DNA from: Alkalicaulis satelles
GTDB taxonomy: Bacteria; Pseudomonadota; Alphaproteobacteria; Caulobacterales; Maricaulaceae
Reading direction: 5' to 3'
Assembly: GCF_008630495.1 (NCBI RefSeq)
Contig: NZ_VWOJ01000003.1
Location: 62,001 to 126,000 of the forward strand
DNA: 64,000 nt
The position numbers and the translations under genes are program-made. The notes under the pieces are model-generated. The model searched no databases and had not been told where the DNA came from. It worked only from the letters and a program-made list of their open reading frames with translations. This document shows, piece by piece, positions 4,754-62,901 of this stretch (within the stretch, counting starts at the first letter, position 1; each line of letters opens with the position of its first letter).

Positions 4754-5134
4754 ATGAAACACTTCATGAAAGCGGCATTGGCCGCATTGCTCGCGGCGCC
4801 GGCCGCGGCGTCACTTGTCTTCGCAGTCCCGGCCGGCCAGGCCGAGGCCCAGTCTGCGCTCGGACCGGAGGGGCGCGTCTACGCCATCGACACCCGGCAG
4901 GGGCGGTACACCGCCCAGTTCCGGCGGGGCGGAGTCTATCAGGACAGCCGGCCGCGCACCGGCCATTGGCAATTTGACGGGCGCACGCTGTGCGTAGTGT
5001 TCAACGCCGCCGGCCGCAGCGAACCCGAGTACGAAATCTGCAAGCCTTTTCATGAGCTGTCCGTGGGCGAAAGCTACGAAACCAACGCCTGGACCCGTGA
5101 CAACAGCCCGGCGCGCATCACCCGGGTGGAATAG
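4754..5134 (+). CDS. Small secreted two-cysteine protein, paralogue C (diverged)
   Basis: A 126-aa protein with a signal peptide (MKHFMKAALAALLAAPAAASLVFAVPAGQAEAQ); GAAGGGGG precedes the ATG. The mature part follows the layout of paralogues A and B but has drifted: FRRGGVYQD, GHWQFDGRTLCVV, then EICKPF with the second cysteine, ELSVGES and a terminal ITRVE. It is clearly the oldest branch of the tandem array. There is no obvious terminator after it; the next gene starts 96 bases on with its own ribosome site. Confidence 0.75.
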   Translation: MKHFMKAALAALLAAPAAASLVFAVPAGQAEAQSALGPEGRVYAIDTRQGRYTAQFRRGGVYQDSRPRTGHWQFDGRTLCVVFNAAGRSEPEYEICKPFHELSVGESYETNAWTRDNSPARITRVE

Positions 5135-18466: not shown

Positions 18467-19657
18467 CTACACCCCCAGCGCCACGCCCAGCGTCGACGCC
18501 ACCCTTGCCGGATCGCTGTCAGCCATGCCCGGCCACAGGGGCAGCGACAGCGTGCGCCCGTAATAGGCCTCCGCCCCCGGCAGCGGTCCCGCATCATGGC
18601 GCGCTGCGTGGAAAGGCTGACGGTAAAGCGGGATATAGTGAACCTGGGAGCCCACGCCCTGCTCTGACAGCCGCGCCATGACATCCGCCCGGCTCAAGCC
18701 CGCCGCCTCGAAATCGATGCGCACATTATAGAGATGCCGGCACGGATCGCCCGGCGCTCCGGCGGGCGACCGAACGACAGGAGCCAGAGGCGCCAGCGCC
18801 TCGTCATACAGCGCGGCCAGCGCGCGGCGGCGGGCGGCGAAGACGGCAAGGCGCCTCAGCTGCGAGCGGCCGAGCGCAGCGTTGAGATCGGGCATACGGT
18901 AATTCCAGCCCAGCTGGACCATCTCGTGCCACCAGGGCTCGTTTGCGCCTTCGCTGCGGTTGAAACGCGCCGGGCCGCGCTCCACCCCGTGGGAGCGGGC
19001 GCGGGCCATATGGGCGGCAAGCCGGGGATCGCGGGTGGTGACCATGCCCCCCTCCCCGCACGCCAGCGTCTTGACCGGATGGAAAGAGAACGCCGCCGCG
19101 TCCGAGTGGGCGCACGCGCCCGCCGGGCGGCCATCGGCGTCCAGCGAGCCCAGCGCATGGCAGGAATCTTCCACCACCGCCATCCCGGCTGCGCGCGCCA
19201 GACTAGCGATGGCGGGCATGTCGCACATCACCCCGGCCAGATGCACGGGCAGCACGGCCCGCGCCGCTCCCCCCGCCCGCCGGAGCGCCGCCTCGAAGGT
19301 CTCAGGCGTCATCAGCCCCGTATCGCGGTCCACATCGGCGAAAATCACATCCGCGCCGCAATAAAGCGCGGCATTGGCGGTGGCCAGGAAGGTGATGGCG
19401 GGGACAATGCAGAGATCGCCCTTCCCCACGCCCAGCGCGTCGAGCGCCAGATGCAAGGCGGCGGTCGCGCTGTTGCAGGCGACGGCATGAGGCGCATCCA
19501 CGGTTGTCGCGAACGCGGCCTCGAAGGCCGGGATTTCCGGCCCGGTGGTCAGATAATCGCTGCGCAGCACGGCTGCGACCGCCTCAATATCGCTTTCGTC
19601 TATGGACTGGCGTCCATAGGGCAGGAAGGGCAGGTCTGGGGACGGCGTGTCGGTCAA
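18467..19657 (-). CDS. pseC: PseC-like sugar aminotransferase for pseudaminic acid
   Basis: A 396-aa PLP enzyme of the DegT/DnrJ/EryC1/StrS family. Its N-terminus (LPYGRQSIDESDIEAVAAVLRSDYLTTGPEIPAFE) and QVHYIPLYRQPFH match PseC, which transaminates the 4-keto-6-deoxy-L-altrose intermediate of UDP-GlcNAc. The PLP Lys is in FHPVKTLACGEGGMVTT; the phosphate-binding loop is NSATAALHLAL. Pseudaminic acid decorates flagellins in many bacteria, and the gene is 107 bases from the nearest flagellin gene. Other pse genes are not in the window. Confidence 0.85.
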   Translation of the reverse strand: MTDTPSPDLPFLPYGRQSIDESDIEAVAAVLRSDYLTTGPEIPAFEAAFATTVDAPHAVACNSATAALHLALDALGVGKGDLCIVPAITFLATANAALYCGADVIFADVDRDTGLMTPETFEAALRRAGGAARAVLPVHLAGVMCDMPAIASLARAAGMAVVEDSCHALGSLDADGRPAGACAHSDAAAFSFHPVKTLACGEGGMVTTRDPRLAAHMARARSHGVERGPARFNRSEGANEPWWHEMVQLGWNYRMPDLNAALGRSQLRRLAVFAARRRALAALYDEALAPLAPVVRSPAGAPGDPCRHLYNVRIDFEAAGLSRADVMARLSEQGVGSQVHYIPLYRQPFHAARHDAGPLPGAEAYYGRTLSLPLWPGMADSDPARVASTLGVALGV

Positions 19658-19707
19658 AGCGCGCTCCGGGCGGGGCAGCCAACATCAACTGAGTCTGGCG
19701 CATGCGA

Positions 19708-19738
19708 AAACCGCCCGGCGCGGCGCGCCAGGCGGTTT
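19708..19738 (-). terminator. Terminator after the flagellin gene at 19765
   Basis: AAACCGCC / GGCGGTTT with a GC-rich 15-base loop. On the minus strand the stem ends in TTTT. It separates the flagellin gene from pseC. Confidence 0.7.
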
Positions 19739-19764
19739 GTCTAAAGGTCAGCAGTCCAGAAGCC

Positions 19765-20598
19765 CTACCGACCGAACAGCGACAGGATGATCTGCGGCTC
19801 GGAGTTGGCGATGGACAGGGCCTGCACCCCCAGCTGCTGCTTGACCTGCAAGGCCTGCAGGCGCGCGCCTTCCTTGGCGAGATCGGCGTCCACCAGATTG
19901 CCCACCCCCTCGGTCAGGGAGTCCATGAGCTTGCCCACGAAAGTGCGGTGAGCTTCCAGCTTCTTGCCGTCCGAACCCAGATTGGCCAGCGCCTGATTGA
20001 CATTGTCCAGGCTCGCCGAGATGGCGCTGACCACCTGGGCGGCCAGGCTCACAGTGCCCAGGCTCGCCGTGCTCTCGATCGTGATGATCGAGCCGGAGAA
20101 AGCCATGTTGTGGGCAGTGAGATTAATGGTGCGCGAGGCGTCTGCGTCCGCCAGGAAATCGATGCCATTGCTGAGCGTGCCATTGAGCAGATTGGCGCCG
20201 TCAAACTCGGCATTGGCGATGATGACCTCGATCTGCTCCATCAACGCCTTGAAGTCGCCGTCATAGGCCTGACGTGCGAAGGCGTCGATGGAGGGATCCA
20301 TGGCCGCGGTGGCCTTTTCACGCATCTCGATCAGGAGATCGGAGATCGCCTCGCCCGCCGCGATCGCTACGTCGGTAATGGATACCGCCCGGTCCAGCGA
20401 GCCTTGCACCGAGCCCAGGGCGCGAATGTCCGCGCGCATGTTCTGGGCCACGGCGAAGACTGATGAATTGTCCTTGGCGCCGGCGACGCGGAAACCGGTA
20501 TTGATCCGGTTCTGGGTCTGATCGATCTCGGAATTGGTCTTGTTCAGGTTCTGCAGGGCGATCATCGCCGAGGTGTTGGTGTGGACGCTCAACGCCAT
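19765..20598 (-). CDS. Flagellin (diverged copy 1)
   Basis: A 277-aa filament protein without a signal peptide, exported by the flagellar type III system. GGGAGAAG precedes the ATG at 20598. The N-terminal D0/D1 segment (NTSAMIALQNLNKTNSEIDQTQNRINTGFRVAGAKDNSSVFAVAQNMRADI) and C-terminal segment (QLGVQALSIANSEPQIILSLF) are conserved; the centre is short, as in Caulobacter flagellins. It differs from the other three copies along its whole length (IDQTQNRI, KATAAMDPSIDAFARQ) and may occupy a distinct filament position. A sigma-54-like promoter lies 56-70 bases upstream. Confidence 0.95.
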   Translation of the reverse strand: MALSVHTNTSAMIALQNLNKTNSEIDQTQNRINTGFRVAGAKDNSSVFAVAQNMRADIRALGSVQGSLDRAVSITDVAIAAGEAISDLLIEMREKATAAMDPSIDAFARQAYDGDFKALMEQIEVIIANAEFDGANLLNGTLSNGIDFLADADASRTINLTAHNMAFSGSIITIESTASLGTVSLAAQVVSAISASLDNVNQALANLGSDGKKLEAHRTFVGKLMDSLTEGVGNLVDADLAKEGARLQALQVKQQLGVQALSIANSEPQIILSLFGR

Positions 20599-20653
20599 AG
20601 GTCTTCTCCCATTTCCCGCCGCCGCATTCAGCAGCGCAGTCCCGCAGACAGGA

Positions 20654-20668
20654 GCAAACCCTGGACCA
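20654..20668 (-). promoter_or_regulatory. Sigma-54-like promoter of the flagellin at 19765
   Basis: On the minus strand TGGTCCAGGGTTTGC, followed by T, has the invariant GG (-24) and GC (-12) at the right distance. It would start RNA about 44 bases before the ATG at 20598. Mid-element bases are weaker than consensus. Confidence 0.55.
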
Positions 20669-20774
20669 GATCGGGCCAGTCCATAAAAAATCATATATAT
20701 CAGAATGATGGGCGAAAAAGCGCGCGCCCGGCCAAGTCAGGCGCGCACCGTCTTGGTTAATTTCTGCCGGGCGA

Positions 20775-20793
20775 ACCGGTCAGACTTGCCGGG
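20775..20793. promoter_or_regulatory. Weak FlbD/ftr-like enhancer half-site
   Basis: ACCGGTC-N5-TGCCGGG matches the palindrome CCCGGCA-N5-TGCCGGG fully in one arm and partly in the other. A second TGCCGGG lies at 20765. They sit about 100-125 bases upstream of the -24 element, like the better sites at the other flagellin units. Confidence 0.4.
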
Positions 20794-20796
20794 CGT

Positions 20797-21171
20797 TTAC
20801 ACCCGCTGATCGACCACACCGCCCTGTCCGTCGCGCAAGAACGCGATCAGGTCCAGATAACCTTCGGGTGGCCACTGGCGCATGGTTTCGCCCGTGTCCG
20901 GATTGAGTATGCGGTAGATGAAGCGCCCCGCCCGCTCTTCGCGGTCGATCAGCAGGCGCGAGCGCCCGCTGGCGTCGAGCCGGTCGCGCAGGGCTTCAAT
21001 TTTGTCTACCGTCTGCGGCAAAGCCTTCCCGATGGCGGCCTTGATGGCCGTCTCGATCGGATTGTCCCCTTCTGAGCCGCGCTGTTGGGACCCTTTGGTC
21101 CCGCCGGCGTTTGCGGCCCATTCAGAGGACGACAAGGCGGTCCCTGACATGAGCGTCGCAATATCCGTCAT
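20797..21171 (-). CDS. flaG: FlaG-like flagellar protein
   Basis: A 124-aa cytoplasmic protein. The C-terminal half (SRLLIDREERAGRFIYRILNPDTGETMRQWPPEGYLDLIAFLRD) is the FlaG family signature: a beta hairpin ending with the NPDTGE-I-RQ-P motif. The N-terminal half is polar and Gly/Ser-rich. FlaG proteins influence filament length in several bacteria. It lies between two flagellin genes on the same strand, 130 bases after one and about 200 before the next. Confidence 0.8.
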   Translation of the reverse strand: MTDIATLMSGTALSSSEWAANAGGTKGSQQRGSEGDNPIETAIKAAIGKALPQTVDKIEALRDRLDASGRSRLLIDREERAGRFIYRILNPDTGETMRQWPPEGYLDLIAFLRDGQGGVVDQRV

Positions 21172-21245
21172 CTGTGTCTCACTGGACGCGTCAGCGTCCG
21201 GCGCCTCCCTTTTTGCAGGCCGCCTCCCTTAACCGGGAGGCCGGT

Positions 21246-21285
21246 GACGACGGCCGGAGGGAACCCCTTCGCTCCGGCCGTCATC
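21246..21285 (-). terminator. Hairpin after the flagellin gene at 21302
   Basis: An 11-bp GC stem (GACGGCCGGAG / CTCCGGCCGTC, extended by weaker pairs) with a 12-base loop, 17 bases after the flagellin stop. There is no clear T-tract, so it may serve as an mRNA-stabilising 3' hairpin rather than a full terminator. Confidence 0.5.
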
Positions 21286-21301
21286 GCCGTTCAGCCTCTC
21301 C

Positions 21302-22129
21302 CTAGCGGAAGAAGCCCAGAACAGTGCTCGGCGCCGAGTTGGCGATGGAGAGCGCCTGGATGCCCAGCTGCTGCTTGACCTGCAACGACTGGAGCCGTGC
21401 GGACTCCTTGGCCAGATCGGCGTCGACCAGATTGCCGATACCCTTCTCCAGCGTGTCGGACAGCTTGCCCACGAAGGTCTTGTGGATCTCAAGAGACTTC
21501 GAGGCCGTGCCCAGACGCGCCAGCGCCGAGTTGATATTGTTGAGAGAGGTCTCAATATCATCAGCCAGGTCGGAGGCCTGGGTGGAGGTGGCGAAGGACG
21601 CCGCCGCCGCCAGAGTCACAATGGACCCGCCCAGGTTCATGTCCTCATCGGTCACATTGATCGTGTTGGAGCCGTCCGCATTGGCCAGAGCCGAGATGCC
21701 GCCGGTCACAGAACCGTCGATCAGGTTGATGCCGTTGAACTCGGCATTTTCCACGATGGTTGTGATCTGGTCGCGCAGCGCCGTGAAGTCTTCGTTCAGG
21801 GCTGAACGCGACGCGGTGTCGAGCGAGGTGTCGGACGCGGCCAGGGCCTTTTCCTTCATCTCGATCAGAAGATCAGAGATCGCCTCGCCTGCGGCCAGGG
21901 CGACGTCAGTCACCGACACCGCCAGATCCAGCGACTGGTTGACGGCGCGCAGGCCGCCCACTTCAGCGCGCATGTTCTGGGCGATGGCGTAAATGCCGCC
22001 ATTGTCCTTGGCCGAGGAGACCGCAAGACCGGTATTGATGCGGTTTTGAACCTGCATCAGCTCGCTGTTGGTCTTGTTGAGGTTTTGCAGGGCGATCATC
22101 GCCCCGGGATTGGTATTGATCGTCGCCAT
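21302..22129 (-). CDS. Flagellin (tandem copy 2)
   Basis: A 275-aa flagellin starting MATINTNPGAMIALQNLNKTNSELMQVQNRINTGL. It is nearly identical to the gene at 22246 in the first ~135 and last ~85 residues, and differs in the exposed centre (LIDGSVTGGISALANADGSNTINVTDEDMNLGG). AGGAGCCAAGAA precedes the ATG. The 116-base gap to the upstream copy has no sigma-54-like element, so the two copies are probably read as one unit from the promoter at 23144. Confidence 0.95.
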   Translation of the reverse strand: MATINTNPGAMIALQNLNKTNSELMQVQNRINTGLAVSSAKDNGGIYAIAQNMRAEVGGLRAVNQSLDLAVSVTDVALAAGEAISDLLIEMKEKALAASDTSLDTASRSALNEDFTALRDQITTIVENAEFNGINLIDGSVTGGISALANADGSNTINVTDEDMNLGGSIVTLAAAASFATSTQASDLADDIETSLNNINSALARLGTASKSLEIHKTFVGKLSDTLEKGIGNLVDADLAKESARLQSLQVKQQLGIQALSIANSAPSTVLGFFR

Positions 22130-22245
22130 TTCTTGGCTCCTTTCGAAGATCCGTTTCTACGGTTGGTCAGCGCACGTTTTGCGCGCCTCGCCCGGCGCCG
22201 GTGCGGCCTTCTGCCGTCCCGGCGCCGGATTCAGTCAGGCTCTCC

Positions 22246-23070
22246 CTAGCGGAAGAAGCCCAGAATGGTGCTCGGCGCCGAGTTGGCGATGGAGAGCGCC
22301 TGGATGCCCAGCTGCTGCTTGACCTGCAACGACTGGAGCCGTGCGGACTCCTTGGCCAGATCGGCGTCGACCAGATTGCCGATGCCCTTCTCCAGCGTGT
22401 CGGACAGCTTGCCCACGAAGGTCTTGTGGATCTCAAGAGACTTCGAGGCCGTGCCCAGACGCGCCAGCGCCGAGTTGATGTTGTTGAGAGAGGTCTCGAT
22501 CGCCGTGGCCGCCGCCGAAGCATTGGTCGTGGTGTCGATTTCGGTGCCTGCGGTGATGGTCAGCGTCGTGCCGGTCAGGCTCATGTCCTCGGCTGACACG
22601 GTGATGGTGTTCGTGCCCTTGGCGTTGGCCAGGGCCGAGATGTCATCCGCGCCGCCAGAGATCAGGTTGATGCCGTTGAATTCGGCGTTCTCGACGATGG
22701 TGTTGATCTGGTCGCGCAGCGCCTTGAAGTCTTCGTTCAGGGCTGAACGCGACGCGGTGTCGAGCGAGGTGTCGGAAGCAGCCAGGGCCTTTTCCTTCAT
22801 CTCGATCAGAAGATCGGAGATCGCCTCGCCGGCGGCCAGGGCGACGTCAGTCACCGACACCGCCAGATCCAGCGACTGGTTGACGGCGCGCAGACCGCCC
22901 ACTTCAGCACGCATGTTCTGGGCGATGGCGTAAATGCCGCCATTGTCCTTGGCTGAGGAAATCGCAAGACCGGTATTGATGCGGTTTTGAACCTGCATCA
23001 GCTCGCTGTTGGTCTTGTTGAGGTTTTGCAGGGCGATCATCGCCCCGGGATTGGTATTGATCGTCGCCAT
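22246..23070 (-). CDS. Flagellin (tandem copy 3)
   Basis: A 274-aa flagellin, the first gene of the tandem pair. Its D0/D1 arms match copy 2 almost base for base, including the ribosome site and first codons. The centre (LISGGADDISALANAKGTNTITVSAEDMSLTG) is different. A sigma-54-like promoter (23144-23158) and two strong palindromic enhancers lie upstream. FlaF and FlbT encoded at 42.7-43.5 kb would be its post-transcriptional regulators. Confidence 0.95.
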   Translation of the reverse strand: MATINTNPGAMIALQNLNKTNSELMQVQNRINTGLAISSAKDNGGIYAIAQNMRAEVGGLRAVNQSLDLAVSVTDVALAAGEAISDLLIEMKEKALAASDTSLDTASRSALNEDFKALRDQINTIVENAEFNGINLISGGADDISALANAKGTNTITVSAEDMSLTGTTLTITAGTEIDTTTNASAAATAIETSLNNINSALARLGTASKSLEIHKTFVGKLSDTLEKGIGNLVDADLAKESARLQSLQVKQQLGIQALSIANSAPSTILGFFR

Positions 23071-23143
23071 TTCTTGGCTCCTACGTTTCTACGTGTGATG
23101 CGTGCATTTTGCGCGCAGGGTCTTCTGACCCGGAGCGTAACCA

Positions 23144-23158
23144 GCAAGGCCGGGGCCA
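23144..23158 (-). promoter_or_regulatory. Sigma-54-like promoter of the tandem flagellins
   Basis: On the minus strand TGGCCCCGGCCTTGC, followed by T. It has TGGC and TTGC with the exact -24/-12 spacing. The predicted leader to the ATG at 23070 is about 60 bases. Confidence 0.65.
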
Positions 23159-23245
23159 AGTGCGGCCGTGGCGCAGGTCAGGTGACGCCAACGCCTGTCC
23201 AGCAAGGCGATCCCGCGCCCACGGCGGTTTCAGTGCAATACGCCG

Positions 23246-23264
23246 CCCGGCAATTCCTGCCGGA
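23246..23264. promoter_or_regulatory. FlbD/ftr-like enhancer palindrome 1
   Basis: CCCGGCA-attcc-TGCCGGA, one mismatch from a perfect 19-bp palindrome. It is about 90-105 bases upstream of the -24 element at 23158. Confidence 0.55.
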
Positions 23265-23279
23265 CAGGCAAGGCTTCAG

Positions 23280-23298
23280 CCCGGCAAAATTTGCCGGG
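23280..23298. promoter_or_regulatory. FlbD/ftr-like enhancer palindrome 2
   Basis: CCCGGCA-aaatt-TGCCGGG, a perfect 19-bp palindrome, 34 bases (about three helical turns) from palindrome 1. A further TTTTGCCGGG half-site is near 23307. It also lies within 190 bases of the divergent unknown gene, so it could act in both directions. Confidence 0.6.
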
Positions 23299-23465
23299 GC
23301 AGCACATTTTGCCGGGTGGATAGGCGGTTCGAATCGGCCCGGTCAGGAAAGGGTTAACGAATTATTGATTATCGCCGCCGCTCAGGTTGCGCGATGCGTT
23401 GCAAGGTGTTTAACTTCGTTAACCATAGGGGGTGGCGCGCTCAGTGGGCGCGCCGGGGGGCTTGC

Positions 23466-23909
23466 GTGATTATTCTTGTCTGGATTCTCTCACCGGTATT
23501 GGGCGCAGGCTTGCTGATGGAGCTAGCCGCCTGGCCGGCTGTTCCGGCGCTTGCCGCGGCCTTCTTCAGCGCCGAGGCCTTGCGTATGGTATTGCGTTTC
23601 ACCTTGTCGCCGGACAATGGCGCGCACTACGCCCTGGATGCCTTGAAGGAAACACCCGTGCGGGCGCTGGAGACAGCAGCGCTCGGCCTCTGCCTGGCCG
23701 CTCTTGCCGGCCTGATTGGATGGTCCCATGGCGCTGGCGCAGCGTCCATGGCGGAGGGCGCCTATGAGGCCCTGCCCGCCATTGCGCTGCCCGAAAGGCT
23801 CGATGGACAGGGGCCGGCCCTGATCAGCACGATTGCAGCCTTACTGATACTTGCTGTGCGCATCTTGCGCCGGCGCCGTCAGCCCATACGGGGCGCACGC
23901 GCCGTGTAA
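23466..23909 (+). CDS. Unknown membrane protein in the flagellin locus
   Basis: A 147-aa protein from GTG at 23466 (GGGGGGC upstream); an in-frame ATG at 23394 would add 24 residues. Three hydrophobic segments are visible: VIILVWILSPVLGAGLLMEL, AAALGLCLAALAGLIGWS (near the centre) and ALISTIAALLILAVRIL at the end, followed by an Arg-rich tail. No family recognised. It opens a three-gene unit running against the flagellins on both sides. Confidence 0.6.
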   Translation: MIILVWILSPVLGAGLLMELAAWPAVPALAAAFFSAEALRMVLRFTLSPDNGAHYALDALKETPVRALETAALGLCLAALAGLIGWSHGAGAASMAEGAYEALPAIALPERLDGQGPALISTIAALLILAVRILRRRRQPIRGARAV

Positions 23910-23937
23910 ATCATTCAATCGGGGGAGACTGAATATC

Positions 23938-24228
23938 ATGGCCTATTTTCGTTATGCCGCCCTTGTGCATTACAAGATCAGACCCGACGGCAATGACATA
24001 GACGCCGAAGAAACCATGGCCGGGGAATATCAGATGGCGACCGGTGTCAGTGACCGCGAAGCCAAGGCGGCGGCCCATGCGATTGTTGAGCGGCGCGCCA
24101 ATCTCAGATGCCAGACTGACGGCTATAATTATTACAGCATCATGGATCTGAAAGTCGCGCGCGTCACAGTTCTGGCCAGTCTTGCGGCGCTGGGCCACAG
24201 GATCAAAAACGCGATTATCCGGTACTGA
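23938..24228 (+). CDS. Unknown small soluble protein in the flagellin locus
   Basis: A 96-aa protein with a strong ribosome site (GGGGGAGA) before the ATG at 23938. The sequence MAYFRYAALVHYKIRPDGNDIDAEETMAGEYQMATGVSDREAKAAAHAIVERR looks like a compact alpha/beta fold without membrane segments. There is a Tyr-rich patch (GYNYYSIMDLKVARVTVLASL). I do not recognise a family. It lies 28 bases after the previous gene and 3 before the next, so the three are likely one operon. Confidence 0.65.
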   Translation: MAYFRYAALVHYKIRPDGNDIDAEETMAGEYQMATGVSDREAKAAAHAIVERRANLRCQTDGYNYYSIMDLKVARVTVLASLAALGHRIKNAIIRY

Positions 24229-24231
24229 GCC

Positions 24232-24831
24232 ATGGAGTTTTTGCGTTCTGCTCAGATCAATCTGTCTGACGCCAGTGCGATCAAATGGCGCCGGGCAGGC
24301 GAAACGCCGTCCCGGCAGGCCGCGCCGTCATCACCCCAGATTCCAGGGCTCCGCCTGCTTGTGGCGTTCATCTTGCCGATCCCCCTCACCTTGGCCGCAG
24401 CCGCGTTCTTGATGTTGGGATTTGATATCGACTTTGAAACCGTCAGCCAGACCTTTCCGCCAACCCTCGTATTCATCGAGTTATGCACAAGTTTCGCCGT
24501 GATCGGCCGGGCCATGCGGCTCATGCGGATCACGCTCGGAAACACGCTGATGGTCGCATTTCTGGTCGCCGTACGGCTGGCGGGTATTCTGGTGATTTAC
24601 TTGCAGGCGGTGTTGACGCTCTGGATCCTGGGCCTGGCTCTGAGCGAGAACATCATGCTTGCAGCCATGCTGGAGCCAGTTGTCGTCCACATTCCGGGGG
24701 CGGACATCCTGTTCAATGACAATGGCAATCCCACCTGGGCCGGTATTTTTGTCACGATGCTCGTGCTGCCGATCATGCAGAGATTCATTTCTCAAGCCAT
24801 AGACGGGGTATTCGCCCGGCCGATCAGCTGA
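24232..24831 (+). CDS. Unknown four-helix membrane protein in the flagellin locus
   Basis: A 199-aa protein. A polar N-terminus of about 40 residues is followed by hydrophobic segments at about 43-63, 80-95, 103-140 (two helices with LMVAFLVAVRLAGILVIYLQAVLTLWILGLAL) and 170-185. No recognised motif. Codon bias is normal for the window, though GC is a little lower than in the neighbours. It ends against the flagellin at 24884 with a shared hairpin between the stops. Confidence 0.65.
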   Translation: MEFLRSAQINLSDASAIKWRRAGETPSRQAAPSSPQIPGLRLLVAFILPIPLTLAAAAFLMLGFDIDFETVSQTFPPTLVFIELCTSFAVIGRAMRLMRITLGNTLMVAFLVAVRLAGILVIYLQAVLTLWILGLALSENIMLAAMLEPVVVHIPGADILFNDNGNPTWAGIFVTMLVLPIMQRFISQAIDGVFARPIS

Positions 24832-24848
24832 AACGTCAGAGAAAAAGA

Positions 24849-24877
24849 AACCGGGACCGCGAGATGCGGCCCCGGTT
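24849..24877 (-). terminator. Terminator between convergent genes, after flagellin copy 4
   Basis: AACCGGGaCCGC / GCGGcCCCGGTT, a 12-position stem with one A-C mismatch and a 5-base loop. On the minus strand it is followed by TCTTTTTCTC, a good tail for the flagellin at 24884. It may also slow plus-strand transcription. Confidence 0.8.
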
Positions 24878-24883
24878 CTCGTC

Positions 24884-25711
24884 CTAGCGGAAGAAAGACA
24901 GCACCGACTGAGGCGCAGCGTTGGCGATGGAGAGCGCCTGGATCCCCAGCTGCTGCTTGACCTGCAGCGACTGGAGCTTTGCGGACTCCTTGGCCATATC
25001 CGCGTCCACCAGATTGCCGATGCCCTTTTCCAGCGTGTCGGACAGTTTGGCGACGAAAGTGGAGTGGATCTCCAGTGCTTTTGACTTGGTCCCGAGCCGG
25101 GCGAGCGCCTCGTTGACCGCGTCCAGAGAGGTCGCGATCTGCGAGGCTACGCCAGAGGCCTGGCTGGCGGTGGAGAACGAGGCGGCGGCGCCAATCGTCA
25201 CGATGGAGCCCGAGAGGGACATGTCCTCTGAGGCCACCGTAATGGTATTGGAGCCGTCCTGGTTCGCCAGCGCGACAAAAGCGTCGGTCGAGCCGTCGAT
25301 CAGGTTGATGCCGTTGAATTCCGCATTATCCACGATGGTGCTGATCTGGTCGCGCAGCGCCATGAAATCTTCGTTCAGGGCGCTCCGGCTGGCCGTGTCC
25401 AGCGACGTGTCTGCGGCGGCAAGAGCCTTTTCTTTCATCTCGATCAGGAGGTCCGAGATCGCTTCGCCCGCGGCCAGAGAGACGTCCAACGTCGCATTGC
25501 CGCGGTCCAGAGATTGCTGAACAACCCCATACCCGGCCACTTCAGCGCGCATGCGTTGGGCAATGGCGAAAATCCCGCCATTATCCTTCGCATTGGCCAC
25601 CTCAAGGCCGGTGTTGATACGGTTCTGCACTTGCTGCAGCTCCATATTGGACTTGTTCAGGTTCTGAAGCGCGATCATCGCTCCAGGGTTCGTGTTCACC
25701 GAGTTCATCAT
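24884..25711 (-). CDS. Flagellin (copy 4)
   Basis: A 275-aa flagellin close to copies 2 and 3 but with scattered changes throughout (LQQVQNRINTGLEVANAKDNGGIFAIAQRMRAEVAGYGVVQQSLDRGNATLD). Two adjacent ATG codons are possible starts (25711 and 25708), both after GGAGGAACCCC. It has its own sigma-54-like promoter at 25781 and a perfect palindromic enhancer at 25908. It is separated from the other flagellins by three unrelated genes on the other strand. Confidence 0.95.
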   Translation of the reverse strand: MMNSVNTNPGAMIALQNLNKSNMELQQVQNRINTGLEVANAKDNGGIFAIAQRMRAEVAGYGVVQQSLDRGNATLDVSLAAGEAISDLLIEMKEKALAAADTSLDTASRSALNEDFMALRDQISTIVDNAEFNGINLIDGSTDAFVALANQDGSNTITVASEDMSLSGSIVTIGAAASFSTASQASGVASQIATSLDAVNEALARLGTKSKALEIHSTFVAKLSDTLEKGIGNLVDADMAKESAKLQSLQVKQQLGIQALSIANAAPQSVLSFFR

Positions 25712-25780
25712 TGGGGTTCCTCCGTTCTGGAAGCGAACGGCCTTTCTGGCCGGCGGACGTTTTGTCCCGCTGACGCCTGC

Positions 25781-25795
25781 GCAATCGCCATGCCG
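25781..25795 (-). promoter_or_regulatory. Sigma-54-like promoter of flagellin copy 4
   Basis: On the minus strand CGGCATGGCGATTGC: GGCA and TTGC with the exact -24/-12 spacing. The predicted leader to the ATG is about 58 bases. Confidence 0.6.
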
Positions 25796-25907
25796 GTGCA
25801 GGCATCAAGGGGGCCGGCATTTCAGCGAATGAATTCAAACCGTTGATCATGCCCCGCCAAGAGGCTCAGTAGCCGACGCCAAATCACACCCGGCAAAGAC
25901 AGGACAT

Positions 25908-25926
25908 CCCGGCAGGATATGCCGGG
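25908..25926. promoter_or_regulatory. FlbD/ftr-like enhancer palindrome of flagellin copy 4
   Basis: CCCGGCA-ggata-TGCCGGG, a perfect 19-bp palindrome with a further CCCGGCAAA half-site at 25889. Centre to -24 element is about 122 bases, very close to the layout at the 23.1-kb unit. Confidence 0.6.
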
Positions 25927-26023
25927 CTGGCGCGCCAACAGCGCGGACCCAATCTTGCGGCCCGGCGTCCGGCTTGTCATGGTCGCCCTCAAATCATCAT
26001 TCAAGGCCCCCGGGAGCCCGCTC

Positions 26024-26590
26024 ATGACCCTTAGCGTCCGTCTTCGCGCCCTCGCAATCGCCGCCTGCGCCGCATTTCCTCTGGCGGCCGGATGCGCGCC
26101 GGACACCGCTCCGCCGCCAGCCGATGGCGCCGGCGCTCTGGAACCGCCCGTCCTGTCAGTCACCGGGGCCGGCGGGCGCACCCCGGTGGAGACCGGCCTG
26201 TTCGACAAATACGCGCTAGCCGGCGTGGCGCAGACATTCAGCTTCGCCGATATCGCCGCCCTGCCACGTTCGGAGATGACAACCGATTACCCCCTGGGAG
26301 ACACGCCGCAGACCTGGACCGGGCCGCAACTGAGCGCCGTCCTCGCCGCCGCCGGAGCGCCGGGGTCAGGCGCGCGCCTGACCGCCTATGACGGCTACCA
26401 GGTGGAGGTGAGCGCTGAGGACATCGCCCGTTTCGAACCGGTGCTCGCCCACGCCGTGGACGGGCGCGGCCTTGTCACGGGCGAACTCGGCCCCTTCATC
26501 CTGGTCTGGCCGCGCGGGGAAGACCCGGAGCTTGATGACATGAACGACGATCTGTGGGTCTGGGGCGTGTTCGTGATCGAGGCGTTCTGA
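26024..26590 (+). CDS. Lipoprotein with a molybdopterin-oxidoreductase-like fold
   Basis: A 188-aa protein. The start at 26024 gives a lipoprotein signal with lipobox LAAGC (Cys at about 20) and GGGAG upstream. The mature part (FSFADIAALPRSEMTTDYPLGDTPQTWTGPQLSAVLAAAGAPG...LTAYDGYQVEVSAEDI...GPFILVWP) resembles small stand-alone proteins with the sulfite-oxidase-type Mo-cofactor fold. I do not see the cofactor-ligating Cys of true enzymes in the mature region, so it may be non-catalytic. The assignment is by fold pattern only. Confidence 0.6.
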   Translation: MTLSVRLRALAIAACAAFPLAAGCAPDTAPPPADGAGALEPPVLSVTGAGGRTPVETGLFDKYALAGVAQTFSFADIAALPRSEMTTDYPLGDTPQTWTGPQLSAVLAAAGAPGSGARLTAYDGYQVEVSAEDIARFEPVLAHAVDGRGLVTGELGPFILVWPRGEDPELDDMNDDLWVWGVFVIEAF

Positions 26591-42701: not shown

Positions 42702-43073
42702 TCAGCTGGCCGCAGCCGTCTCGGCCGCCGGCGCCAGGCCCTGCATGATGGTGCGGTTGATATCGATGAGCGTGTCGAGATCGGTCTCCCCGCGCATGGC
42801 CGCGCTGGTTTCCTTGGACACAAAGATCGACAGGGAAATGATCGAGGCCCGCAGCGTTTCAGGCAGGGCGTTGCCCGAGCTCGCACAATCGGCTGCGAAG
42901 GCTGACCAGACCCGCCGGTTGCGGTCGAGCGCCTTGGCCTTCTTGCGGATATCGCTGGCGCCGCATTCGCGCACCGCCATCAGTTCACGCGTGACAAAGC
43001 CCATCAGGCGGTACTCGGTCGCACGGGGGTCTTCGGTGCGCGAACTGGCGGTCTGATAGGCCTGGTACGACAT
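42702..43073 (-). CDS. flaF: Flagellar biosynthesis regulator FlaF
   Basis: A 123-aa cytoplasmic protein. YQAYQTASSRTEDPRATEYRLMGFVTRELM and FVSKETSAAM are the FlaF family signature. In Caulobacter FlaF is needed for flagellin translation and export and acts against FlbT. It follows flbT at 5 bases, so the two form an operon. Its stop abuts the yggS stop. Confidence 0.93.
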   Translation of the reverse strand: MSYQAYQTASSRTEDPRATEYRLMGFVTRELMAVRECGASDIRKKAKALDRNRRVWSAFAADCASSGNALPETLRASIISLSIFVSKETSAAMRGETDLDTLIDINRTIMQGLAPAAETAAAS

Positions 43074-43078
43074 GAAAC

Positions 43079-43486
43079 TCAGCTCTTGCCTGCTGCGGGG
43101 GCGCCCAGACGCTCGGCCTCATAGGCGATCAGTTTGCGGCAGCGCAGTAGCGCCTTGTAATACTCCCCGCCCATCACATCCCGGCTCACGTCCACACATT
43201 GCTGCAGGACTTCCGGGTTGGTCACCGCGCTCATGAATTCGGTCATGCGCACCACGAAGGCGTCATACATGCCGTCTTCTGTCGAGGCGGACAGATACAT
43301 CATCATGACCGGGAAATAGATGCGCTTGGCCGGGGTGTCGGCCTCATGCTCCTGCATGATGTCCTTCTCGCGCAGCACGCTGGCCTTGTTCTGCAGCATC
43401 AGCGTGGCGCGCCTGTCGCCATTTTCCACGACCGCGCCATTGAGCACGAAACGCTCTCCGGGTTTCAGCGACAGCTTGAGCGGCAT
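43079..43486 (-). CDS. flbT: Flagellin mRNA-binding repressor FlbT
   Basis: A 135-aa protein starting at 43486 (MPLKLSLKPGERFVLNGAVVENGDRR), as in all FlbT proteins; the frame upstream is not conserved. QNKASVLREKDIMQ and YYKALLRCRKLIAYE are also typical. FlbT binds the 5' leader of flagellin mRNA and promotes its decay until the hook is complete. Its targets here would be the long leaders (about 44-62 bases) of the flagellin genes at 19.7-25.7 kb. Confidence 0.93.
   Translation of the reverse strand: MPLKLSLKPGERFVLNGAVVENGDRRATLMLQNKASVLREKDIMQEHEADTPAKRIYFPVMMMYLSASTEDGMYDAFVVRMTEFMSAVTNPEVLQQCVDVSRDVMGGEYYKALLRCRKLIAYEAERLGAPAAGKS

Positions 43487-61419: not shown

Positions 61420-62901
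<1,482 letters not shown>

Follow-up and report, generated by a model that had tools for sequence, protein, structure and literature searches.

The structural flagellin genes of Alkalicaulis satelles are probably controlled in two layers, a scheme to which we assign a probability of roughly 0.66: transcription from sigma-54 promoters through FlbD and its ftr sites, and translation through FlbT, which would read tandem RNA hairpins with an ARAA loop (R, A or G) in the leaders of the flagellin messages. The genes lie in a 64,000 nt stretch of the 2.89 Mb genome (8 contigs), positions 62,001 to 126,000 of contig NZ_VWOJ01000003.1 (C3:62001-126000), hereafter the window, to which all coordinates without a prefix refer. 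The original prediction, made from the letters of this DNA, described an FlbD regulon at three flagellin units; it captured the transcription layer and was incomplete in that it missed the leader RNA element. Taken alone, the FlbD/ftr switch is ordinary; what matters here is the leader element.

ARAA-loop hairpins in flagellin leaders

The flagellin genes of the window and the leader elements recognized by a covariance model, R1, are as follows.

22246..23070, minus strand: structural flagellin (Pfam Flagellin_N/C)
23062..23136, minus strand: leader RNA element of 22246 (R1 E 6.4e-18, training sequence; hairpin cluster 23066-23131)
21302..22129, minus strand: structural flagellin, second cistron (Flagellin_N/C; 88% identity to the 22246 product)
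22121..22203, minus strand: leader RNA element of the promoterless 21302 (R1 E 2.0e-5, not a training sequence; hairpin cluster 22125-22162)
24884..25711, minus strand: structural flagellin (Flagellin_N/C)
25702..25773, minus strand: leader RNA element of 24884 (R1 E 0.069, not a training sequence; hairpin cluster 25719-25767)
19765..20598, minus strand: divergent VHTN-type flagellin (Flagellin_N/C, searched as 19765-20592; 58% identity to the 22246 product)

Each of the three structural flagellin leaders contains three or four tandem hairpins with ARAA(N) loops, the last of which covers the ribosome site or the start codon. The 22246 leader presents the loops AGAA, AAAAU and AGAA, followed by a hairpin over the start codon, and the 24884 leader folds into GGAC[AAAAC]GUCC, CGGCC[AGAAA]GGCCG and CUUCC[AGAAC]GGAGG; the Shine-Dalgarno sequence is part of the third of these. 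In a simple scan of 158 kb of the genome on both strands, hairpin clusters were found at the three structural flagellin leaders only. The leader of 22246 was in the training set of R1, and those of 21302 and 24884 were outside it. When 150 of 1184 first-look candidates from the whole genome were scored with R1, the top three matches, C3:85062-85136, C3:84121-84203 and C3:87702-87773, were the leaders of 22246, 21302 and 24884, respectively, with the E values listed above, and the fourth-best match had an E value of 8.1. No R1 match was found in the leader of flagellin 19765. The promoterless copy 21302 thus has a putative translational element of its own.

For comparison we fetched 79 named loci of flagellin relatives, whose titles point mostly to Maricaulis- and Caulobacter-type genera. 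Locus L112 yielded no flagellin start, leaving the window and 78 loci as the comparison set; the flagellin profile gave 213 hits in the window and the 79 loci, of which 208 had a start and 206 a distinct full upstream region of 400 bp. In L081 and L083 the start called at 4958 lies upstream of the true one; both were retained in the counts. The flagellins were divided into VHTN-type (FljJ-like) and structural ones, 44 and 162 by an early rule and 47 and 159 by a slightly different later rule.

Among the relatives' leaders listed, short hairpins share one recurring loop. When hairpins with at least four Watson-Crick pairs were collected from the last 100 nt of the 206 leaders, loops that begin with AAAA were present in 103 and with AGAA in 64, with the next 4-mer in 7. 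The 201 ARAA hairpins compare with a mean of 4.2 (maximum 8) in 20 dinucleotide shuffles; 167 of them are closed by C-G, and their stems comprise 37 different 4-mers. Under a rule that tolerates one G-U pair and extends 12 bases into the coding region, at least one ARAA hairpin was found in 140 of the 159 structural flagellins, at least two in 95 and at least three in 39, and VHTN-type flagellins had one in 7 of 47 and two in none; control stretches gave a hairpin in 1 of 206 further upstream and in 1 of 205 inside genes. In 80/159 a hairpin reaches to within 20 nt of the start codon or past it, and in 48/159 it spans the start codon. Since 25 of the 30 structural flagellins that lack a -24/-12 element of 9/12 nonetheless have the hairpin, the leader element is tied to the ribosome site rather than to the promoter.

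The stems covary. Windows anchored on C-ARAAN-G were chosen without a stem requirement (218 distinct windows), and the next three outward pairs, with up to six pair types, were complementary in 90, 82 and 66% of them; shuffles gave at most 51, 53 and 50%, respectively. Applied further upstream, this anchor gave 28 windows, in which no pair exceeded its shuffle maximum. An alignment, A9, was built from 27 of 29 listed leaders (L133 and L077 excluded), and 95.6% of its cells are paired, compared with 23-39% when the structure is slid, a comparison that favors the structure because it was drawn from the same sequences. Two-sided changes numbered 28 in A9 and 6.9 on average in shuffles (standard deviation 2.3), with none of 500 shuffles reaching the observed number, and 7 of the 15 pairs had changed on both sides, which 18 of 500 shuffles reached. 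The start-codon helix of A9 hardly varies and is uninformative on covariation. In 14 named loci outside its training set, R1 gave 22 matches at E ≤1, at least one per locus, the best being in L114 (2.5e-9), L121 (3.3e-7) and L132 (9.6e-6); with the exception of L108:10748, every one of these matches ended no more than 20 nt from a flagellin start.

No description of the ARAA-loop leader element was found in the literature searched or in Rfam, and the studies of Anderson and Gober from 2000 and of Ardissone et al. from 2020 may already cover part of this leader structure for a single species. Searching 19500-26500 of the window with Rfam returned four weak microRNA models, all below their gathering scores, and a mir-214 match at 23226-23315 was rejected as a pair of ftr palindromes read as a stem.

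Sigma-54 promoters and ftr-like palindromes

The -24/-12 elements and palindromes of the flagellin units are listed below; -24/-12 matches were scored over 12 positions and ftr matches over the 14 palindrome positions.

23143..23158, minus strand: -24/-12 sigma-54 promoter of the 22246-21302 unit (TGGCCCCGGCCTTGCT, 11/12)
20653..20668, minus strand: -24/-12 promoter of flagellin 19765 (TGGTCCAGGGTTTGCT, 10/12)
25780..25795, minus strand: -24/-12 promoter of flagellin 24884, the weakest of the three (CGGCATGGCGATTGCG, 9/12)
23280..23298, no strand: ftr-like palindrome, exact CCCGGCA-N5-TGCCGGG
23246..23264, no strand: ftr-like palindrome, one mismatch to CCCGGCA-N5-TGCCGGG
25908..25926, no strand: ftr-like palindrome, exact CCCGGCA-N5-TGCCGGG
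20765..20793, no strand: two direct TGCCGGG half-sites (20765, 20787) and an 11/14 ftr match (20775-20793)

All three predicted -24/-12 elements, both exact 19-mers and the one-mismatch copy were found, and the tandem copy 21302, expected to be promoterless, has no -24/-12 element of at least 8/12 within 22130-22260. Palindromes had been claimed for all three units; they are present at the 23143 and 25780 promoters, and the 20653 promoter has the half-sites and the 11/14 match instead. The spacing, described as nearly constant, is similar but not constant, the start-to-start distance from ftr site to promoter being 103 and 137 bp at 23143, 128 bp at 25780 and 122 bp for the imperfect site at 20653. 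At one mismatch or fewer, the palindrome occurs 3 times in the window against 0.05 expected, and none of 100 shuffles reached 3; at two mismatches or fewer it is near chance (4 versus 1.96 expected), and the TGCCGGG half-site alone is not enriched (26 versus 27.9 expected).

Genome-wide, the exact 19-mer occurs at two sites, both at flagellin promoters of the window. The proposed genome scan with the palindrome gave five sites at one mismatch or fewer, four of which are at flagellar promoters, namely the three in the window and C3:28083; the fifth, C1:757357, is inside open reading frames (ORFs). The C3:28083 site (13/14) lies between the promoters of the divergent fliK and flgK genes; its start is 87 bp from that of a -24/-12 element. 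A second -24/-12 element in this region faces flgK, and two 12/14 sites are located between the flgK promoter and the flgK start as read, the FlgK model match beginning at residue 46 of the longest ORF. A flgF-like gene has a -24/-12 element with a 12/14 ftr-like site 101 bp away. Sites with two mismatches were dropped as evidence of specificity, their genome-wide number (67 versus 53 for the reversed pattern) being near background. The -24/-12 pattern alone is common, with 168 matches at one mismatch or fewer versus 96 for the reversed pattern. The genome encodes FlbD (NF050807 equivalog, 791 bits against a cut-off of 750) and FliX (PF10768, 8e-39).

The palindrome is also kept in relatives. 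With the N5 spacer it was found at ≥12/14 in 81 of the 206 flagellin upstream regions, the window included, and the other 15 spacers between 0 and 15 gave at most 19 regions; 199 shuffled palindromes gave a mean of 2.0 and a maximum of 9. The 125 regions without a site at 12/14 include some second cistrons. In regions with a -24/-12 element of at least 10/12 within 170 bp of the start, all 98 ftr sites are upstream of the promoter, their centers at a median of 117 bp (82-167) from the -12 element. An ftr site accompanies 77 of 159 structural flagellins versus 4 of 47 VHTN-type flagellins, and the consensus of 104 distinct sites is approximately CCCGGCA-RAWWY-TGCCGGG.

FlbD/ftr control of the flagellins is of a known type and, as a prediction, well supported, because the palindrome is conserved at flagellin promoters and recurs at -24/-12 promoters of other flagellar genes, and because FlbD and FliX are encoded; the regulon interpretation of the original prediction stands. 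In this layer, FlbD would bind the ftr-like palindromes about 80-170 bp upstream and activate sigma-54 polymerase at the -24/-12 promoters.

A perfect -24/-12 sequence, TGGCACGCGGGTTGCA, was also observed at L061:9366-9381 (C2:17366-17381 of the A. satelles genome), inside the 5′ part of an ORF. The stretch of the ORF that matches the holdfast anchor HfaA (residues 90-197) lies downstream of it, HfaB follows, and sigma-54 control of holdfast attachment (HfaA/HfaB) is possible.

FlbT as the candidate reader of the hairpins

The genes for FlbT and its neighbor FlaF are encoded in the window.

43079..43486, minus strand: flbT (PF07378)
42702..43073, minus strand: flaF, adjoining flbT (PF07309, 3.4e-35)

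Work by Anderson and Gober from 2000 is reportedly the one cited for FlbT as a regulator of flagellin translation in Caulobacter. According to the excerpts of the literature that we cite here and below by accession, FlbT associates with flagellin 5′ untranslated regions (UTRs) in Caulobacter (PMC3930126, PMC4347634), and it binds FljJ alone among the flagellins and represses the five others (PMC7591256). The excerpt of the review PMC4347634 lists the FlbT mechanism as "Unresolved" and leaves its recognition site blank. We propose the ARAA hairpins as the FlbT operator.

The co-occurrence of hairpin and FlbT was surveyed in 289 alphaproteobacterial genomes, of which 106 encode FlbT, 182 a Flagellin_N protein and 62 CsrA (61 over the cut-off). 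CsrA is present in 5 of 106 FlbT-encoding versus 56 of 183 FlbT-lacking genomes; the five with both are G087, G172, G199, G270 and G275. From 120 class loci, two without a flagellin start (L256 and L259, both from FlbT-lacking genomes) were dropped, and one flagellin each from 75 FlbT-encoding and 43 FlbT-lacking genomes was compared. The FlbT-lacking sample was picked by the best Flagellin_N scores, and several of the flagellin starts rest on weak profile scores. The strict C-G-closed ARAA hairpin was found in 19/75 FlbT-encoding versus 0/43 FlbT-lacking genomes (Fisher p 1e-4), and a looser test without the C-G rule gave 26/75 versus 1/43. CYAGAA within 40 nt of the start followed the same split (20/75 versus 0/43). 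The reverse was seen for AGG-loop hairpins (1/75 versus 13/43), all 13 of which came from the 32 FlbT-lacking genomes that encode CsrA; the 11 that lack CsrA had none. When profile scores of 20 or more were required, the strict test gave 14/57 versus 0/25 for ARAA and 0/57 versus 5/25 for AGG.

In several FlbT-lacking loci (L173, L164, L174, L253 and others), the flagellin leaders have CAGGNNG-loop hairpins with covarying stems; in 26 distinct CAGGNNG windows the outer pairs were complementary in 88, 77, 73 and 69%, against shuffle maxima of 69, 65, 62 and 69%. This hairpin is a probable CsrA operator. Two flbT homologues, L303 (G037:C13:314228-314578) and G311:C5:278236-278586, were flagged with one in-frame stop each.

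The translation layer of the proposed scheme would work as follows. Structural flagellin messages, the second cistron included, open with several short ARAA(N)-loop hairpins, usually C-G closed, the last of which in A. satelles covers the Shine-Dalgarno sequence or the start codon. Most likely, FlbT in an FlbT-FljJ complex would bind the ARAA loops and keep ribosomes out until assembly of the hook-basal body is finished and FljJ has been exported. The FljJ-like flagellin would escape through a leader of its own without ARAA loops, and the missing element on that leader fits a co-repressor that needs to be made first.

Several observations weigh against this scheme. The strict hairpin test is passed by just those 19 of 75 FlbT-encoding genomes across the class, the association of hairpin and FlbT is confounded by descent, as FlbT-encoding and FlbT-lacking lineages differ and their flagellins too, and co-occurrence in this sample cannot tell FlbT from FlaF. 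CYAGGA near the start, a CsrA-like motif, fails to separate the two groups (7/75 versus 4/43), and an unpaired C-AGGW-G core is present in 19/75 and 17/43 leaders of the two groups. The genomes with both FlbT and CsrA are mixed: ARAA hairpins were found in 2/2 flagellins of G199 and 1/3 of G270, and none in the examined flagellins of G087 (one), G275 (one) and G172 (two on the flbT contig). In Brucella, according to the excerpt of PMC4347634, FlbT acts as an activator. Within the window, the 20653 promoter lacks a palindrome at one or two mismatches, and its unit is a poor fit to both the transcription and the leader layer.

In G172 (L311, L317), the flagellin beside csrA carries UCCAGGAUGGG, a three-pair hairpin that resembles a weak CsrA-type ribosome-site hairpin, and further flagellins are on the flbT contig, which makes this genome a natural within-genome comparison.

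Alternative explanations

If the FlbD/ftr sigma-54 layer were the only regulatory one, the hairpins could slow mRNA decay or adjust the access of ribosomes, with no dedicated protein involved. The evidence for ftr sites given above (81/206 regions, 98 sites all upstream of the promoter) agrees with this, and stable 5′ structure alone is generally known to lengthen mRNA life; but the fixed ARAA loop on freely varying stems, the several copies in many leaders and the near absence from FljJ-like leaders point to recognition of the loop, and we consider protection alone quite unlikely. The loops might instead be recognized by a factor other than FlbT, such as FlaF, Hfq or another protein. The flaF gene adjoins flbT and is not separated from it, and Hfq favors A-rich single strands according to the same excerpt of PMC4347634. 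Nevertheless, FlbT is the factor reported on flagellin 5′ UTRs of Caulobacter, and the strict hairpin is missing in the 43 FlbT-lacking genomes examined, which makes another reader improbable to us.

It is true that the inverted repeats lie downstream of promoters, where they could be DNA sites for a transcription factor near the transcription start. Against such a role, the conserved loop is strand-specific, the stems include G-U pairs, many hairpins extend over the Shine-Dalgarno region or the start codon, and they are present in 25 of the 30 structural flagellins for which no promoter was detected; we give this explanation very little credence. The data above show the sites with their conservation, covariation, specificity and co-occurrence with flbT; from them we infer that FlbT is the reader of the ARAA hairpins and that its binding would block the ribosome.

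Comparison with known systems

The -24/-12 promoters, the palindromes about 100 bp upstream and the pair of FlbD and FliX are shared with the FlbD/ftr regulon of Caulobacter. At the divergent fliK (hook operon)/flgK locus, one promoter has sites on its downstream side, an arrangement that recalls the flaN-flbG locus, which is reportedly named for Caulobacter in the title of a 1993 paper by Mullin and Newton.

Flagellin 19765 is probably the FljJ counterpart, as it is a divergent paralogue (58% identity). Gene order at the VHTN-type flagellin also fits the fljJKL order. Among the leaders listed, a TTAACC-type sequence was observed upstream of the VHTN-type flagellin in several Brevundimonas, Caulobacter and Asticcacaulis loci. 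This TTAACC-rich region in Caulobacter-type loci fits the reported CtrA control of Caulobacter fljJ (PMC7591256) and thereby the FljJ-like reading; in A. satelles, by contrast, the VHTN-type flagellin has a -24/-12 element and a weak ftr site. A -24/-12 element of at least 10/12 within 170 bp was found in 25 of 47 VHTN-type flagellins, and the promoter type of this gene seems to differ between lineages, -24/-12 here and TTAACC-type elsewhere.

With the control by FlbT, FlaF and FljJ in Caulobacter, the window shares flbT and flaF, and the flagellin mRNA 5′ UTR is the reported target there (PMC3930126, PMC4347634). The repeated ARAA-loop hairpin is proposed here, whereas the excerpt of PMC4347634 gives no recognition element. 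CsrA/FliW control of flagellin mRNA likewise involves leader hairpins with a purine-rich loop, and an analogy between FlbT/FlaF and CsrA/FliW is suggested in PMC4894983; the loop is ARAA in our case, in contrast to the GGA motifs of CsrA (PMC4894983), and no CsrA match was found in the A. satelles genome.

Another structured RNA, flg-Rhizobiales RNA (RF01736), is found in leaders of flagellar genes of Rhizobiales. It gave no match in 19500-26500 of the window or in four related loci, and one match, below the family cut-off, in 142 alphaproteobacterial genomes.

Resemblance of FlbT to CsrA

The N-terminus of FlbT resembles CsrA (L..LKPGE...NGAVV...VLREKDI versus L.LTRK.GE..VIND...VLRRE). Alignment of the two profiles by hhalign gave a probability of 57.6% at full length and 65.6% for the N-terminal part, in register, and 0.1% for a flagellin control; the score of 25.0 was reached by none of 300 column-shuffled CsrA profiles, but the best shuffle scored 24.9. 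Across 41 FlbT sequences M1, L3 and R39 never vary, and the CsrA residue aligned with R39 is an invariant arginine, residue 44, which contacts RNA. The AlphaFold model of FlbT (mean predicted local distance difference test score 85.7) has five strands followed by four helices, and the elements of CsrA are likewise ordered strands then helices.

Other searches lent no support. PF02599 (CsrA) was absent from the 18 families matched by the 41 FlbT sequences at E ≤10 with HMMER filters on. Foldseek against PDB gave no match at E ≤0.001 for either the full FlbT model or its N-terminal 52 residues, and no CsrA was among the matches listed (50 of 206 for the full model, 50 of 55 for the N-terminal part). 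Against PDB sequences, the single FlbT protein had no match, and profiles gave weak unrelated matches (E 0.2 and worse). We rejected filing FlbT as a CsrA, given the outcome with the CsrA family model and the fold search, and regard the resemblance as suggestive only of a CsrA-like origin. It is a speculative and doubtful idea that FlbT might descend from CsrA with strong divergence, its N-terminal beta domain reading ARAA instead of GGA loops. Flagellin control in Alphaproteobacteria would then use a common hairpin design in which the loop codes, AGG for CsrA and ARAA for FlbT, are almost mutually exclusive, and FljJ and FlaF would stand where flagellin and FliW do elsewhere.

Neighboring genes

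One further gene accompanies the flagellin units.

20797..21171, minus strand: FlaG-like gene, downstream of 21302 (PF03646, 7.7e-6)

The three plus-strand ORFs between the flagellin units (23394-24831; stretches 23394-23909, 23938-24228 and 24232-24831) had no Pfam match.

Implications

A repeated, covarying hairpin with a conserved loop that tracks flbT across the class is a concrete candidate for an operator. If FlbT does read it, this would explain how the FljJ-like flagellin escapes its own repression, how each cistron of a flagellin operon could be controlled separately, and how flagellin synthesis is coupled to assembly in lineages without CsrA.

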